The notes below the pieces were generated by a model. That model saw nothing but the letters and a program-made list of their open reading frames with translations, was not told the DNA's origin and ran no database searches. 64,000 bases of DNA from Syntrophobotulus glycolicus DSM 8271. GTDB lineage: Bacteria; Bacillota; Desulfitobacteriia; Desulfitobacteriales; Syntrophobotulaceae. The DNA lies in NCBI RefSeq assembly GCF_000190635.1, contig NC_015172.1:1798001-1862000 (forward strand), read 5' to 3'. Below are positions 49,460 to 60,334 of the stretch, piece by piece. Positions within the stretch are counted from its first letter, which is position 1. Every line of letters begins with the position of its first letter. The position numbers were made by a program, and so were the translations under genes.

Positions 49460-50689
49460 TCAGGGGCTCTTGTCAGTGCTCCTCAGGGGTGTATATCCTG
49501 TTTTTTCTACAAGGTACTGTCCCTGATCAGATCGGATCCATTCTATAAACTTTTCCACGTTAGGATTCTTTGTTCCGGCAGTTACCGCATAAAACTCGGC
49601 GACATACGGATACGTTTCATTTGCGACATTCTCCCTTGTCGGAGCAACTCCGTTTACGGCTAATAGCTTAATTTTATTGTCATTTACCATTTCAGTGGCG
49701 AAAAATAAAAATGAGTAGCCGATAGCGTTATCGTAATTTTTATAGGATGAAACCCTTTGGACTATTTCACCCATGCCTGTTGCAACATTTTTTTGGGGAG
49801 GTGTTGTAAGAGGAATATCGCCCATAAATTTGATCAGCGCTGTTTGGCTGCCCGAATTTTCGGGGCGCTGAAAGGCTCTGATTTTGGTGTTTTGTCCGCC
49901 AAGGTCCCTCCAGTTTTTAATCTTCCCAGAATAAATTCCTTGAATGTCAGTTATGGAAAGAGCACTGACGGGATTTTGAGCGTTTACAAAGAACACAAAC
50001 GCTTCACGGCCGATAGGAGTCAATTTCAATTCCACATTTGATTCTCTCGCCATTTGAAGCTGTTCCGCTGAAGGCCCAGCCACAAAGATGATGTCTGCTT
50101 CTCCTTCAATCAACCGCCCGTATGCATTGCGGGTGTTCGTACAGGCAACTATCTCATTGGCCATTTTAGCGAAAGCCACCCCATCTTTGCCCTTTTCATC
50201 ATCAAGACCGTTAGACTCAGCGGTATTCTCTGCCGGATAAACAGCCTTTGCAAAGGCCGAGTACAGAGGATAAAGGGCGGTGGCCCCATCTATTCTGGGC
50301 GGATTGCCCGCTATTTTCAGCGACGATGGTTCAATTAACGGTACGGCCAGCGTGTCCTCCCGAAATGGATCATATAGCGATAGATCGACGCCTTGTTCAT
50401 TGACTTCCTCAATGCTGTTGTCATATGCTTTATTGATTTCATACGCAGTAACGGTTAAAAGTACTGCGGAAACCGTCACCCCTAACGCGATTCGTCTTAC
50501 TTTCGGCTTAAACAGTCCCCAAATCTGTATGATAACGAATAACCATATGACCACAGCACTAACGATAACCAATGCCTGGTAAAAAACATCTTTCCCGGTA
50601 AAGGCAACGATAAGCAGAACAATAAATCCGCCAAACAAAACTGTGGCAGAAGCGAGAACGCTAATTAATACTTTCCATGCTGAGTTCAA
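49460..50689 (-). CDS. Membrane-anchored PstS-like substrate-binding protein
   Basis: About 409 residues with three N-terminal membrane helices (about 8-32, 39-62, 68-86), then an extracytoplasmic PBP_like_2 (phosphate-binding type) domain: RIDGATALYPLYSAFAKAVYP, NRPENSGSQTALIKFMGD-type loop (ENSGSQTALI) and YDNAIGYSFLFFATEM. The SGSQ and GATALYP segments are the phosphate-binding loops of PstS. No pstCAB genes are nearby, and a three-helix anchor is unusual for PstS. Start is TTG 50689, 7 nt after AGGTGG. It may be a phosphate sensor or scavenger; this is inference. Confidence 0.82.
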   Translation of the reverse strand: MNSAWKVLISVLASATVLFGGFIVLLIVAFTGKDVFYQALVIVSAVVIWLFVIIQIWGLFKPKVRRIALGVTVSAVLLTVTAYEINKAYDNSIEEVNEQGVDLSLYDPFREDTLAVPLIEPSSLKIAGNPPRIDGATALYPLYSAFAKAVYPAENTAESNGLDDEKGKDGVAFAKMANEIVACTNTRNAYGRLIEGEADIIFVAGPSAEQLQMARESNVELKLTPIGREAFVFFVNAQNPVSALSITDIQGIYSGKIKNWRDLGGQNTKIRAFQRPENSGSQTALIKFMGDIPLTTPPQKNVATGMGEIVQRVSSYKNYDNAIGYSFLFFATEMVNDNKIKLLAVNGVAPTRENVANETYPYVAEFYAVTAGTKNPNVEKFIEWIRSDQGQYLVEKTGYTPLRSTDKSP

Positions 50690-50763
50690 AAACACACCAC
50701 CTGTTCAAAATACAAACGATGATCCGCCAAGTTTTTCATGACGAACGATTAATCATTATACTC

Positions 50764-54693: not shown

Positions 54694-54722
54694 TTGACAA
54701 TTTTTGAGTTTCTTTTTATATT
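54694..54722 (+). promoter_or_regulatory. Sigma-A promoter upstream of the acyltransferase gene
   Basis: Perfect TTGACA (54694-54699), 17 nt, TATATT (54717-54722) on the plus strand, 102 nt before the first start codon. The stretch between the dnaJ promoter (54570) and this promoter holds no gene. Confidence 0.7.
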
Positions 54723-54771
54723 TTAACTTTTTTGTAACCATTTTTAAGTCTTTTGTAAAGCTATTTGTAAC
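54721..54771 (+). promoter_or_regulatory. Five direct repeats TT(G/T)TAA spaced about 11 bp
   Basis: TTTTAAC at 54721, TTGTAAC at 54732, TTTTAAG at 54742, TTGTAAA at 54753 and TTGTAAC at 54765 repeat with starts 11, 10, 11 and 12 bp apart, about one helical turn, so all on one DNA face. OmpR/PhoP-type response regulators bind such arrays. A TTGTAA-16-TATCTT second promoter (54765-54792) could be activated from it. Confidence 0.55.
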
Positions 54772-54823
54772 AAAAATTGGTATCTTTATCTTAGGATGTC
54801 CTAATTTTTACTGAAGAAGGGGA

Positions 54824-56728
54824 ATGATCGTGATGCTGAAAGAAAAAGAACAAAAACGGAATACATACATTCCCGGCTTGGATGGACTGCGGGCAATAGC
54901 TGTTTTGGCGGTGATTGCCTATCATTTGAACTTCAAATGGGCCTCGGGAGGGCTTTTGGGGGTCTGTTTGTTCTTTGTTTTATCAGGCTATCTGATTACC
55001 GATCTCCTGGTCAGCCAGTGGAATTTGTCGGCGCGGATCGATTTTAAGGATTTTTTCCAGCGGCGTGCTCGCCGGCTGCTGCCGGCCTTACTGGTCATGC
55101 TGGCAGGAACTGTGATTTGGACTGTCCTGCTGAATCCCGCCCGTTTAGATTCCCTCAAAGGGGATATTCTGGCCGCCGTTTTTTACCTGAATAATTGGTG
55201 GTTAATTTTTCACGATGTTTCCTACTTTGCCAGCTTCGGTCCTCCTTCCCCTCTGGGCCATTTGTGGTCTTTGGCTGTAGAAGGGCAATTCTACCTGGTT
55301 TGGCCGGTATTGTTAGGGCTGGGGCTGCGTTACCTGCCGCGCAGAGGCTGGCTGGTTGTCCTGACTTTGGCTGGGATTTTGGCTTCAGGTATAGCGATGG
55401 CCCTGCTTTATCAGCCCGGTACGGATCCCAGCCGGGTCTATTATGGTACGGATACAAGAGTTTCGGCCCTGCTGATCGGAGCAATACTGGCTCTTGCCCT
55501 GCCGCGGCAGAAATTATCCCTTACCCTGCCATCCAGAGACCGTTTGCTTCTGGATCTGGTTGGAGCAGCCGCGTTGATTGCTGTTCTGCTGATGATCTGG
55601 CAAACGAACGAATATGATTCTTTCCTTTATCGTGGCGGACTGCTGTTATTTTCCCTGATCTCAGCCGTCTTGATCGCCGTCCTCGCCCATCCTGCCGGCC
55701 GTCTGGCCAAACTGTTGGGGAAACAGCCCCTGCGGTGGCTTGGTGTTCGTTCTTACGCGATTTATTTATGGCATTATCCTGTTATTCTCTTAACAAGCCC
55801 TTCTGTAAATACCGGGGGGCTGGATATGATGCTGGTTTTGAAGCAATTGGCGGCCATAATCATTTTGGCTGAATTATCCTGGCAGCTGATTGAAAAGCCG
55901 GTCCGCTTTCGGGCTGAACAAAGGCAGCCCGGGAAATTTCCTGATCTGAAATACAGGCTGAGATCCTTGGGCCGCAGTATGCGCTTTGCCTTAGCGTTTT
56001 ATTTTCTGGGGTTATCTGTTCTCACCATAGCAGGAGTAACGTGTTTAAAGACAAAGGACCTGGATACTGTCTTATCCATAATTGGTGTTTCTTCAGCCCC
56101 GGAAATCAAGACCGCAGAACAAATTGATTTTGCTTCTGCCTCATCGTCGATGGCTGTCCTCAATCTGCCGGCGGCAAAGCCTAAACCTGAGCCTGAAGCA
56201 GAGTCTGAGTCAAAACCCGAAGCGGCACAGCCTCCGGTCTCACCCCCAAAAACCGGCTCAGGCCAAGGTGTGATCATTATCGGCGATTCGGTAATAGCCG
56301 GTGCCAAATCCGCCCTGGAAGAACGCTTACCGGGCATTGAAATTGACGCCCAGATTGGACGCCAGATGGATGAAGCAGTAGGTTTAGTCAACAGGCTGAA
56401 AACACAAAGCTTATTAGGTGAACGGGTTATTATTGAGCTGGGGACCAACGGGCCGTTCAGCCAGGTGCAATTGAGAGACCTGCTGGATTCCTTGGGTCAG
56501 GTCAAGCAGATTATTCTGGTCAATACCCGTGTTCCGCGTCCCTGGCAAGATGAGGTCAATGAAACACTGGAACGAGCTGCCGTTTCCTATCCCGGGACTA
56601 AGCTTGTAGACTGGTATTTGGCGAGCACCGGTCATCATGAGTATTTTTACGAGGATGGTGTCCATCTTACTCCAAAAGGTATTGAAGTATATTGCCAGCT
56701 TTTGCAGAACGCCCTTACTCCCCTGTAA
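54824..56728 (+). CDS. OatA-like membrane acyltransferase with SGNH domain
   Basis: A 634-residue O-acyltransferase. The N-terminal acyltransferase_3 domain (ten or more helices, residues about 15-360; GLDGLRAIAVLAVIAYH, YLWHYPVILL) passes acyl groups across the membrane. After a linker (about 430-475, acidic, E/S/P-rich) comes a SGNH esterase-fold domain with VIIIGDSVIAGAKSALEE (Ser), IELGTNGPF (Asn) and EDGVHLTPKG (Asp-His). This is the layout of OatA, which O-acetylates peptidoglycan. Start: ATG 54824, GTG 54830 or ATG 54833, all next to AAGGGG; the last two are better spaced. Confidence 0.9.
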   Translation: MIVMLKEKEQKRNTYIPGLDGLRAIAVLAVIAYHLNFKWASGGLLGVCLFFVLSGYLITDLLVSQWNLSARIDFKDFFQRRARRLLPALLVMLAGTVIWTVLLNPARLDSLKGDILAAVFYLNNWWLIFHDVSYFASFGPPSPLGHLWSLAVEGQFYLVWPVLLGLGLRYLPRRGWLVVLTLAGILASGIAMALLYQPGTDPSRVYYGTDTRVSALLIGAILALALPRQKLSLTLPSRDRLLLDLVGAAALIAVLLMIWQTNEYDSFLYRGGLLLFSLISAVLIAVLAHPAGRLAKLLGKQPLRWLGVRSYAIYLWHYPVILLTSPSVNTGGLDMMLVLKQLAAIIILAELSWQLIEKPVRFRAEQRQPGKFPDLKYRLRSLGRSMRFALAFYFLGLSVLTIAGVTCLKTKDLDTVLSIIGVSSAPEIKTAEQIDFASASSSMAVLNLPAAKPKPEPEAESESKPEAAQPPVSPPKTGSGQGVIIIGDSVIAGAKSALEERLPGIEIDAQIGRQMDEAVGLVNRLKTQSLLGERVIIELGTNGPFSQVQLRDLLDSLGQVKQIILVNTRVPRPWQDEVNETLERAAVSYPGTKLVDWYLASTGHHEYFYEDGVHLTPKGIEVYCQLLQNALTPL

Positions 56729-56823
56729 GTAATAATTGAAACAGAGGACTATCCTAAATCTCCCGAGTTGGTTTAAAATAAAAGAAGATATCAGCTTTGA
56801 ATTACCGATGCGGAGTGATTGAA

Positions 56824-57522
56824 TTGAACAGAAAAAAGATAAAAATCCTGGTCGTTGAAGATGAGGAATCGATCCGGCGTTTTATTACCCTTAACTTGAA
56901 CGCGGCCGGCTATCTGGTGAGTGAAGCCGTTTCCGGAGAGGAGGCCCTCGACAAGCTTAAAATGCTTGATCCTGATATTGTCGTACTGGATATCATGCTG
57001 CCCGGTATCGACGGGTTTGAAGTTTGTCAGCATATTTGCGCCACTATGCCGGAAACCAGGGTCATTATGCTGACGGCCAGAGGACAGGATACGGATAAAA
57101 TCCTGGGCTTGGAGCTCGGAGCAGACGATTATATTGTCAAACCGTTTAACCCTATAGAATTGACGGCCCGGATCAAAGCGGTTCTGCGGCGCAGGAACGG
57201 ACCGAAAGAGACAAAGCAAGTCCTGAACTGCGGAAAATTGTGTTTGGATATCACGGCTAATAAATTATTCAAAGATGAACTTGAAATTGAATTAACACCC
57301 AATGAATTTGCCTTACTGAAATTTTTTATGGAAAACCAGGGAAAAGCCCTTAAACGGTATGAAATCTTAAATGCTGTCTGGGGTGAGAACTATTTCGGGG
57401 ATACAAAAACCCTGGATGTCCATATCAGGCGGTTACGGGAAAAAATAGAGGATCACCCTTCCTATCCGGATTATATTAAAACCGTATGGGGTTCCGGATA
57501 CAGATGGCAGCAGGAGTCTTAA
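56824..57522 (+). CDS. OmpR/PhoB-family response regulator
   Basis: A 232-residue regulator. Receiver: KILVVEDEESIRRF (acidic pair), PDIVVLDIMLPGIDG (phospho-Asp), VIMLTARGQDTDK and IVKPFNPIEL (Lys). C-terminal winged helix: LTPNEFALLKFFMEN, VWGENYFGDTKTLDVHIRRLREKI. Start is TTG 56824 with GGAGTG 6 nt upstream; the frame begins nine codons earlier. Its stop is directly followed by the kinase start. It may control the repeats upstream of the acyltransferase gene; this is inference. Confidence 0.95.
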   Translation: MNRKKIKILVVEDEESIRRFITLNLNAAGYLVSEAVSGEEALDKLKMLDPDIVVLDIMLPGIDGFEVCQHICATMPETRVIMLTARGQDTDKILGLELGADDYIVKPFNPIELTARIKAVLRRRNGPKETKQVLNCGKLCLDITANKLFKDELEIELTPNEFALLKFFMENQGKALKRYEILNAVWGENYFGDTKTLDVHIRRLREKIEDHPSYPDYIKTVWGSGYRWQQES

Positions 57523-58917
57523 ATGAGAGGGATTAGAGCAAGACTGACCGTCAATTTCATGATCGTGATTATGATTACCGTAACAATCCTTGAGATCCTT
57601 CTTATTTATGCTGTCCGGCAAAATTACTATGCCAGCCTGAGGAGCAGCCTGACAAGCCAAATCAAAATCTCTGCGGACCTATATGCGAAGTATTTTTCAG
57701 ATACGTCTCTCCAGGAAAACATTCTTTACAATGTGGACGCTTTTTGGAATCAAAGTAATGCCGAAGTGGAAATTGTCGATAAAGACGGCAAGATTGTTAT
57801 GGATTCACTGGGGGTCATTCAACAGGATCTGGTGGCGGCTGATGATATCAGTGAAGCTTTGGAGGGAAGACTGGGCGAATGGATTGGAATGTTTAACGGT
57901 CAAAAGGTGATGAGTGTCGCCTATCCATTAAAATCCAATAATGAAATCGTAGGAGCATTACGCTTTATTGCCTCATTGAGTACTGTTGATCAGGATATCC
58001 AAAATACGGCGAAAATCTTTATCTCCATTGGCCTTCTGGTGATCTTCATTGCAGGCTTAATCAGCATTTTTTTAGCAAATACCATTATTGTGCCGCTAAA
58101 AGAAGTGACAAAAGCCGCTCAGGAAATTGCTGCGGGCAATTTTAAAGCAAGAAGCAGAAAAACCCATGAAGATGAAATCGGTAAGCTTTCCGATACCTTA
58201 AATTATATGGCTGATGAAATCGTGAAAAAAGAACAGTTAAAGAACGACTTTATTTCATCAGTTTCCCATGAGCTGCGAACCCCGCTCACTTCAATTATGG
58301 GTTGGGCGATTACTTTGCAAAATGAACAATTTCAACAAAAAGATATGCTCAAAGACGGCTTAAATATCATTGCCAAAGAAAGTGAACGCCTGACCCACAT
58401 GGTTGAGGAATTATTGGATTTCTCCAAATTTGTTTCCGGTCGGATCAAGCTGCATAATGAGCCGATCCATATTGTTCATCTGATGGAACACATCCACAAA
58501 CAATTGACCCCTCGCGCCGTGCGGGAAAATATTAATTTTTCTCTTTGCTGTCCGGAGGATCTGCCTTGTCTGGTTTCTGACATCAACCGTCTGAAACAAC
58601 TGTTCATCAATATCCTGGATAATGCTTTCAATTTTACCCCTGCAGGCGGGAGCATTATGTTGAAAGCAGAGAACTTCGACAAAGAAATTCGCTTTACCAT
58701 TTCGGACAGTGGTTGTGGAATAAGTACTGAGGAATTGCCTATGGTGAAAGAAAAGTTTTATAAGGGAAAAAGCTCCCGCTCCAAAAACGGCATTGGCCTG
58801 TCCATCTGTGAAGAAATCGTGGTTCTGATGAAGGGTCAATTAGAGATAAATAGTGAGCTTGATCAAGGAACAACTGTACGAATTACCTTACCCCAAGGGG
58901 AGGTTTTGAATGAGTAG
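57523..58917 (+). CDS. Membrane sensor histidine kinase (PhoR/ResE/WalK type)
   Basis: A 464-residue kinase with two membrane helices (about 9-31 and 163-188) enclosing an extracytoplasmic sensor domain of about 130 residues, a HAMP domain (NTIIVPLKEVTKAAQEIAAG), HisKA with His249 in FISSVSHELRTPLTSIMG, and HATPase_c with NAFNFTPAGG, TISDSGCGIS and KNGIGLSICEE. It starts at the base after the regulator stop. Its stop overlaps the lipoprotein start by 8 nt, so a three-gene unit is formed. Confidence 0.94.
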   Translation: MRGIRARLTVNFMIVIMITVTILEILLIYAVRQNYYASLRSSLTSQIKISADLYAKYFSDTSLQENILYNVDAFWNQSNAEVEIVDKDGKIVMDSLGVIQQDLVAADDISEALEGRLGEWIGMFNGQKVMSVAYPLKSNNEIVGALRFIASLSTVDQDIQNTAKIFISIGLLVIFIAGLISIFLANTIIVPLKEVTKAAQEIAAGNFKARSRKTHEDEIGKLSDTLNYMADEIVKKEQLKNDFISSVSHELRTPLTSIMGWAITLQNEQFQQKDMLKDGLNIIAKESERLTHMVEELLDFSKFVSGRIKLHNEPIHIVHLMEHIHKQLTPRAVRENINFSLCCPEDLPCLVSDINRLKQLFINILDNAFNFTPAGGSIMLKAENFDKEIRFTISDSGCGISTEELPMVKEKFYKGKSSRSKNGIGLSICEEIVVLMKGQLEINSELDQGTTVRITLPQGEVLNE

Positions 58918-60334
58918 GATTTTAAAGTTTTTGCTGATCACATTTTTGCTCTTTTTGCTTACCGGCTGTTCCGATCTTTCCTGGACAACAGCCGGTAAGA
59001 TCATGCCTCCGGTTAATGAGGTCTGTCCTTTGGAAGGAAAGTGGGCGGTCCTTGAGGATCTGGACAACGGCAAACCCCTGCAAAAGGATGAGCAGCAAAA
59101 GATTGAGAATATCGCCCAATTTACCAGGGAATTCACTATGATTAAGGGTTCTTTATGGGAGCATCCCACTTATAAACTGAAAAAGGTCAATGCGGCGGAT
59201 TATTTCAAGACAAAGTCCTTAAATTCAATCAACAGCCTGGTGCCGGTCCAAGAAGTTACCGTCATCACCGTCTCAACTTCCGATGGGAATTTTCTGGGGG
59301 AATTTATGAAAGTCAATGAGATCAAAATCATCGCTTTTGTGCAAAATCAGGCGTTTTTGATGGAGAAGATTTTGGATCAGGCGGATTCTTCTTTAGTTCC
59401 AATAAATCGTGATACTGTCCGGCTGAACAGTCGGGGTCAAACAGAAATTTCCGGTGTTTTGCTGGGACTGAGAACACCTCAAGACAAAGGTTTTACGTAT
59501 CAAACACTATGGCTGGCAGCTGATAATAAGAAACTTCACCAGGTGTTGACTCTTGACAGTATCTTTTTTCCGCGCAACAGCGGCTTTTGGAAACTGGAAG
59601 CGGGCCAAAGTGAGACGACTCAAAATGAGGCTTTAAGCGCTTATGATGTTTCCAATAAACAAAAAGACCAAATTCAAACGGAGAATAGAATTGTGAACTA
59701 TATCGGTAATGATTATGCTGTAATTGAAAGCAATGTTAAGGGGATCAGTCAATTACAGGTTTTACCGGTAGATAAGCTCTCCTCGCCGACAGGTCTTAAG
59801 GTCTCCGATTTTTTTGGCGACAGCGACTTAACCGCTTATCATAACGCCCGGGACAAGACACGCCGGGATATTCTTAAAAACGGGGTTGCCATAATCAACG
59901 AAAGCCATTTCGAGGAGAATTTCGGGCTGGCCCGTAAAAACGGACATTGGTATCTTCACGGGAGACTGAACTATCTGGATGGAATGCAACCCAAATTTTT
60001 AGATTTTAACGTAAATGTGATTCCCCCCAAAGAATTGATTTATTATGACACCTTGTGTTTAAACTGGCAAAGTATTAAAGACCGTATTCCCGACGCGGCA
60101 GATGCTTTCACTTCTCCGAGCCAGGATATTGCTCTTGTTTTGACCAAAAATACGCTCTATGTCTATGGTCTCAGTATGGGGCAGCTGGATAACGAACCTT
60201 TGATCAAAATCAAACTTCGGGAAGGGCAAACTGTGATTATGGCGGAATGGGCCACAGGCTCTTATGTTGACAATTGGGAAAAAGCCTTTCTTTCCAACGG
60301 GGCCCAGGTGTTTACCGGCGCAAACCCCGGATGA
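58910..60334 (+). CDS. Lipoprotein of unknown function, coupled to the two-component system
   Basis: A 474-residue exported protein with signal peptide and lipobox LLTGC (Cys20) so attached to the membrane outer face. The mature part is mostly beta with repeats such as KVNAADYFKTKSLNSINSL and DKTRRDILKNGVAIINESHFEENF-type segments; no family recognised. Its start overlaps the kinase stop by 8 nt, an arrangement common for accessory sensors of membrane kinases. A role as signal-modulating partner is inference. A coding frame of this length with normal composition leaves little doubt that the gene is real. Confidence 0.8.
   Translation: MSRILKFLLITFLLFLLTGCSDLSWTTAGKIMPPVNEVCPLEGKWAVLEDLDNGKPLQKDEQQKIENIAQFTREFTMIKGSLWEHPTYKLKKVNAADYFKTKSLNSINSLVPVQEVTVITVSTSDGNFLGEFMKVNEIKIIAFVQNQAFLMEKILDQADSSLVPINRDTVRLNSRGQTEISGVLLGLRTPQDKGFTYQTLWLAADNKKLHQVLTLDSIFFPRNSGFWKLEAGQSETTQNEALSAYDVSNKQKDQIQTENRIVNYIGNDYAVIESNVKGISQLQVLPVDKLSSPTGLKVSDFFGDSDLTAYHNARDKTRRDILKNGVAIINESHFEENFGLARKNGHWYLHGRLNYLDGMQPKFLDFNVNVIPPKELIYYDTLCLNWQSIKDRIPDAADAFTSPSQDIALVLTKNTLYVYGLSMGQLDNEPLIKIKLREGQTVIMAEWATGSYVDNWEKAFLSNGAQVFTGANPG

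Follow-up and report, generated by a model that had tools for sequence, protein, structure and literature searches.

The window, a 64,000-nt stretch of the Syntrophobotulus glycolicus DSM 8271 genome, carries one after another on its forward strand genes for an OatA-like acyltransferase, an OmpR-family response regulator, a sensor histidine kinase and a lipoprotein, headed by an array of short direct repeats (Table 1). The oatA-like gene combines an acyltransferase-3 membrane domain with an SGNH domain, the combination that marks OatA proteins, and its C-terminal domain (residues 483-627) matches the crystallised acetyltransferase domains 6wn9/6vjp with an E value of about 2e-30; its product is predicted to be an OatA-type peptidoglycan O-acetyltransferase. 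Judged from the spacing to a GGGG ribosome site, translation possibly starts at the ATG at 54833. The first-pass annotation had placed an OmpR-family regulator gene two genes downstream of the array; such a gene is present, but it is the next gene after oatA, which alone separates it from the array. Its open reading frame opens at 56797, and homology begins at 56824. Also in the window, at 49460-50695 on the reverse strand, is a gene for a PstS-family binding protein that carries a membrane segment at its N terminus; the complete pst operon lies far away, near 131 kb.

Table 1. Coordinates of the array, the predicted promoter elements and the genes of the locus (positions within the window)
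Feature	Coordinates	Strand	Description
Predicted sigma-A-like promoter	54694-54722	+	TTGACA-17-TATATT, 11/12 match; -10 overlaps unit 1
Repeat unit 1	54721-54726	+	TTTTAA; NTTAAC in relatives; kept in promoter alignments
Repeat unit 2	54732-54737	+	TTGTAA; TTYGTAA in relatives; proposed first dimer site with unit 1
Repeat unit 3	54742-54747	+	TTTTAA; NTTAAG in relatives
Repeat unit 4	54753-54758	+	TTGTAA; about -40 to -35; proposed second dimer site with unit 3
Repeat unit 5	54765-54770	+	TTGTAA; 12 nt past unit 4
Predicted -10 with upstream TG	54778-54786 (hexamer 54781-54786)	+	TGG-TATCTT; 22 nt past unit 4
oatA-like gene	54824-56728	+	Acyl_transf_3 membrane domain (PF01757, 1.3e-32) and C-terminal SGNH-type domain
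Response regulator	56824-57522	+	OmpR/PhoB family; Response_reg PF00072 and Trans_reg_C PF00486
Sensor histidine kinase	57523-58917	+	HAMP, HisKA, HATPase, weak extracellular Cache
Lipoprotein	58910-60334	+	Third member of the conserved module

The kinase has no PAS domain detectable with Pfam, and its best NCBIfam model is WalK, at 262 bits against a cut-off of 725; the WalK of Clostridioides difficile is likewise PAS-less (PMC9210968). The lipoprotein matched no Pfam or NCBIfam family, yet it belongs to a family of its own, with a lipobox and many invariant W, G and P residues, whose members nearly always lie directly behind the kinase gene (loci L125-L150). Members were detected in 22 of 398 genomes sampled from the phylum. 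Searching with an alignment of the lipoproteins brought up 51 named loci, belonging to Desulfosporosinus, Pelotomaculum, Syntrophomonas, Desulforamulus, Sinanaerobacter, Geosporobacter, Alkaliphilus and other genera, and most of these loci have the same operon and array. The predicted structural model of the S. glycolicus lipoprotein has a mean pLDDT of 79.8, and a structure search returned weak propeller-like matches alone (TM ≤0.23), on which we claim no fold.

All five TT(G/T)TAA units described by the first-pass annotation are present, spaced 11, 10, 11 and 12 nt apart. When the 224-nt region upstream of oatA was shuffled 50,000 times with its dinucleotide content preserved, the longest chain of units at 10-12-nt spacing was three (reached 10 times), against five observed, and a chain of at least four units never arose. 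The genome scan that the first-pass annotation had proposed as a check singled the array out: the pattern of four TTNTAA units at 11-10-11 spacing matched the 3.4-Mb genome once with zero to two mismatches, at the oatA array, and at two other sites with three mismatches each, compared with 10 whole-genome matches at up to three mismatches for the same pattern read backwards. A profile built from 11 promoters of relatives and S. glycolicus scored the array at 45.1 bits (E value 4e-11) and the next site in the genome at 13.6 bits; a second promoter profile gave 50.5 and 12.7 bits. Because the S. glycolicus array contributes a row to each profile, its score is inherently inflated, and the informative quantity is the gap to the next site. 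Neither profile revealed a second convincing array site in the genome, and none of the five polysaccharide deacetylase genes of S. glycolicus that were checked carries an array. There is thus no support for a wide regulon in S. glycolicus, where the operon itself is the likely target.

Units 1-4, with their 11-10-11 spacing, recur upstream of the oat homologs of relatives (consensus TTAACTTTTTYGTAANNATTYTTAAGNNTTTTGTAAAGC) and are kept before homologous operons in several Firmicutes classes. The array is thus found at the very place where, according to the first-pass annotation, its absence would have spoken against a regulatory role. A profile search across the class detected arrays in 26 of 82 genomes, and orthologs of the regulator were found in 30; both were present in 24 genomes, the array alone in 2, the regulator alone in 6 and neither in 50 (Fisher p 5e-13, a value that overstates independence since the genomes are related). 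One of the two genomes with the array alone is 82% complete and has a weak match, and the other is 78% complete; on inspection, three genomes scored as having the regulator alone (G025, G044 and G070) do contain arrays. No array was detected in G006, G014 or G019, where oat is present and the regulator absent. The array follows the regulator rather than oat. Further arrays in regulator-bearing genomes precede deacetylase genes, an unlinked oat and genes for LCP proteins, for an SLH-domain YcdB-type protein and for beta-propeller lipoproteins, every one of them an envelope gene. In Geosporobacter and Alkaliphilus the array is on the other strand, before a divergent deacetylase gene.

Several individual loci add detail. 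Arrays at L154, L157 and L158, in regulator-bearing Desulfosporosinus-type genomes, stand before PD40 beta-propeller lipoprotein genes, some of whose products resemble LpqB-type Gmad1 propellers. At L199 (3694-3758) and L202 (3763-3829), the Geosporobacter and Alkaliphilus loci, the reverse-strand array separates the regulator operon from a divergent deacetylase gene, at which it points. Five-unit arrays with regular 11-nt spacing precede the regulator operon at L192 and L193 (CEB3 and Acididesulfobacillus), with copies of a longer repeat upstream at L193. A broken further copy of oat (G054:C22:17626-18295) is found near an intact array-bearing oat.

The regulator-kinase-lipoprotein order is kept in 28 of the 29 regulator loci outside the window, the exception being G075, whose regulator (57% identity) has neither kinase nor lipoprotein beside it. 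An array heads the operon at 26 of the 29 module loci of the class; of the remainder, G007 retains a two-unit remnant, G072 lies at a contig edge and G049 has no recognisable array. The first gene, by contrast, is swapped between lineages (operon heads L125-L153) while the array and the regulator module stay. It is oat in S. glycolicus, G005, G007, G026, G031, G032 and G057; a polysaccharide deacetylase gene in G037, G039, G040, G046, G049-G051, G053, G054, G062, G066 and G070; and a gene for an LCP protein in G045 and G072. In G025, G029, G042-G044, G047, G063 and G065 there is no head gene. We favor, with some reserve, the reading that the operon encodes a three-component wall-sensing system of deep-branching Firmicutes, made up of the regulator, a PAS-less kinase and the lipoprotein, which departs from the Wal systems studied so far in being autoregulated by way of a four-unit operator, and which has a head gene exchanged between lineages among peptidoglycan-modifying enzymes (O-acetyltransferase, N-deacetylase and LCP protein). 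If this is true, the operon head would be a plug-in site for wall modification.

OmpR/PhoB-type operators consist of at least two direct repeats with a period of about 10-11 nt; the array has this layout, and it is most likely an operator of this familiar kind. The region is 70% A+T, and T-rich repeats could arise in such sequence without function; the shuffles, the uniqueness of the array in the genome and its retention across several Firmicutes classes, which already contradicts such an origin, leave this explanation practically no probability. How the predicted operator would act is suggested by the sequence downstream of it. Among 48 distinct arrays collected with a pattern that demanded units 2-4 and no -10, TANNNT lies exactly 22 nt past unit 4 in 46, and no conserved -35 hexamer was detected at the usual place across the arrays. 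A -10 at fixed distance together with the lack of a conserved -35 is what one expects where transcription depends on an activator, and transcription would start near 54793. The promoters counted for building the 72-nt profile were gathered with a pattern in which part of the motif is fixed; for this reason the 22-nt register count alone is used here as evidence. Two other arrangements can be weighed against this layout. The 11/12 consensus sigma-A-like promoter just upstream overlaps unit 1 with its -10, so that a bound regulator might block that start in S. glycolicus, much as MtrA of Corynebacterium glutamicum represses from a site near the -10 (PMC3353115). However, this putative promoter is private to the S. 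glycolicus genome and unconserved in relatives, a match of at least 10 to the sigma-A promoter being found in the sequence surrounding 2 of 42 arrays, the S. glycolicus one included, and what is conserved is the downstream -10 typical of activation; we consider repression unlikely. Still less probable is a promoter in which unit 5 serves as the -35, as the first-pass annotation had suggested, paired across a 16-nt spacer with the second TATCTT at 54787-54792. Each hexamer matches 4/6, but a unit 5 at 12 nt is found in the S. glycolicus array alone among 46 aligned arrays (G042 and G047 have a fifth unit 11 nt after unit 4), the second TATCTT falls outside the conserved register that the first occupies, and the conserved -10 lies only 10 nt beyond unit 5. 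A role of unit 5 as the -35 is accordingly unsupported.

Which regulator reads the predicted activator-type operator is a separate question. The S. glycolicus genome encodes 18 OmpR-type regulators, and the units resemble both Pho-box repeats and the WalR half-site TGTWAH with N5 spacing (PMC4168254), so that phosphate PhoP or a canonical WalR might be the binder. Since the units resemble WalR and MtrA half-sites alike, motif shape alone names no regulator. The first-pass annotation had assigned the pattern to OmpR/PhoP regulators: the repeats are indeed of the OmpR/PhoB type, conserved, and track the adjacent regulator, but phosphate PhoP is a separate protein encoded in the pst-phoU-phoP-phoR locus. 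The pst promoter contains Pho-box-like TTTACA/TTAACA and gave no match with either array model. The operon's regulator scores below the NCBIfam cut-offs of PhoB (TIGR02154, its best-scoring model; 233 against 296 bits), YycF (224 against 340) and MtrA (215.5 against 300). No protein of the genome matched the YycF/WalR model at an E value of 1e-75 or better. In a tree with the other OmpR-type regulators of the genome and three canonical WalR proteins, the module regulators group together in a separate clade (support 0.91). On the TIGR02154 score, the separate pst-locus protein and the tree, phosphate PhoP was rejected as the likeliest binder; canonical WalR was rejected on the YycF score and the position of the module regulators outside the WalR clade. 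Array-bearing modules share the recognition helix GDTKTLDVHIRRLREKIE with hardly any variation; it differs from those of PhoP and the other aligned paralogs of the genome, and it has changed in the distant modules L200, L204 and L205, which lack a clear array. The array co-occurs with the module regulator in the genome comparison and stands directly before the regulator gene where the head gene is absent. A different regulator of the genome as the reader of the array is accordingly quite improbable, and we infer that the operon's own regulator binds it.

Taken together, we hold it likely that the array serves an autoregulated, activator-dependent promoter as its operator and that the operon's own regulator binds it as two tandem dimers, with peptidoglycan modification as the output; its place at the operon head is what suggests autoregulation. 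Two head-to-tail dimers of the phosphorylated regulator would sit on the same DNA face, one at units 1-2 and the other at units 3-4, spanning about -72 to -35, and would recruit RNA polymerase to the -10 at 54781-54786, which has no recognisable -35. This promoter would drive oatA, the response regulator, the kinase and the lipoprotein as one operon, giving O-acetylation in S. glycolicus, to which relatives would add N-deacetylation and LCP-type wall attachment. Computation provides the array, its conservation, the fixed -10 register and the linkage to the regulator; binding, activation rather than repression, the dimer stoichiometry and the signal are what we infer.

The nearest studied analog is the Wal system of C. 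difficile, whose walA-walR-walK operon encodes a lipoprotein and a PAS-less Cache kinase, with pgdA among the most strongly induced WalR targets (PMC9210968). The two systems have in common an OmpR-type regulator, a PAS-less kinase with Cache and HAMP domains, wall-modification targets and a lipoprotein, the last likened by its presence in the operon. They differ in that walA comes first and the S. glycolicus lipoprotein last, that the C. difficile operon is reported not to be autoregulated (PMC9210968) whereas an array heads that of S. glycolicus, and that the S. glycolicus regulator falls outside the canonical WalR clade. Actinobacterial MtrA-MtrB-LpqB shares the regulator-kinase-lipoprotein order and a role in wall metabolism. 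MtrA binds a direct repeat with an RTAAC core and an 11-nt period (PMC3353115), and (R)TAAC-core direct repeats at this period, in putative activator sites upstream of the -35, are found here too. However, the MtrA box is a two-unit 8-bp repeat and the S. glycolicus array has four units with 5-6 conserved bases; the sequence of the lipoprotein matches no LpqB domain, and the regulator lies below the MtrA cut-off. The canonical WalR (YycF) box of Bacillus and Staphylococcus, TGTWAH-N5-TGTWAH (PMC4168254), resembles the array in its two hexamers at an 11-nt period and in its association with wall genes. Here, in contrast, four units form two tandem pairs, of which units 2 and 4 fit TGTWAH and units 1 and 3 (TTTAAC, TTTAAG) do not, and the regulator misses the YycF cut-off. 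Pho boxes of PhoP/PhoB are likewise direct repeats one helical turn apart, but the regulator falls short of the PhoB cut-off and the genome has its separate PhoP in the pst locus. The S. glycolicus system is predicted to work like the Wal and Mtr systems, yet it fails the sequence cut-offs of each. It stands apart from the C. difficile and actinobacterial systems in carrying an array at the head of its operon and in having an exchangeable first gene. In the open-access literature we found no papers on autoregulation or regulons of such a system in Peptococcaceae-like bacteria, and an apparently autoregulated system with an exchangeable wall-modifying head gene is apparently an undescribed variant there.

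The analysis ties a motif noticed in raw sequence to one particular regulator, and for bacteria whose regulation is sparsely documented it predicts a small regulon of wall-modification genes. With the 72-nt promoter model, target genes may be found by sequence alone. The operon may also serve as a test case for how Wal- and Mtr-like systems acquire lipoprotein partners, autoregulation and output genes that can be exchanged.
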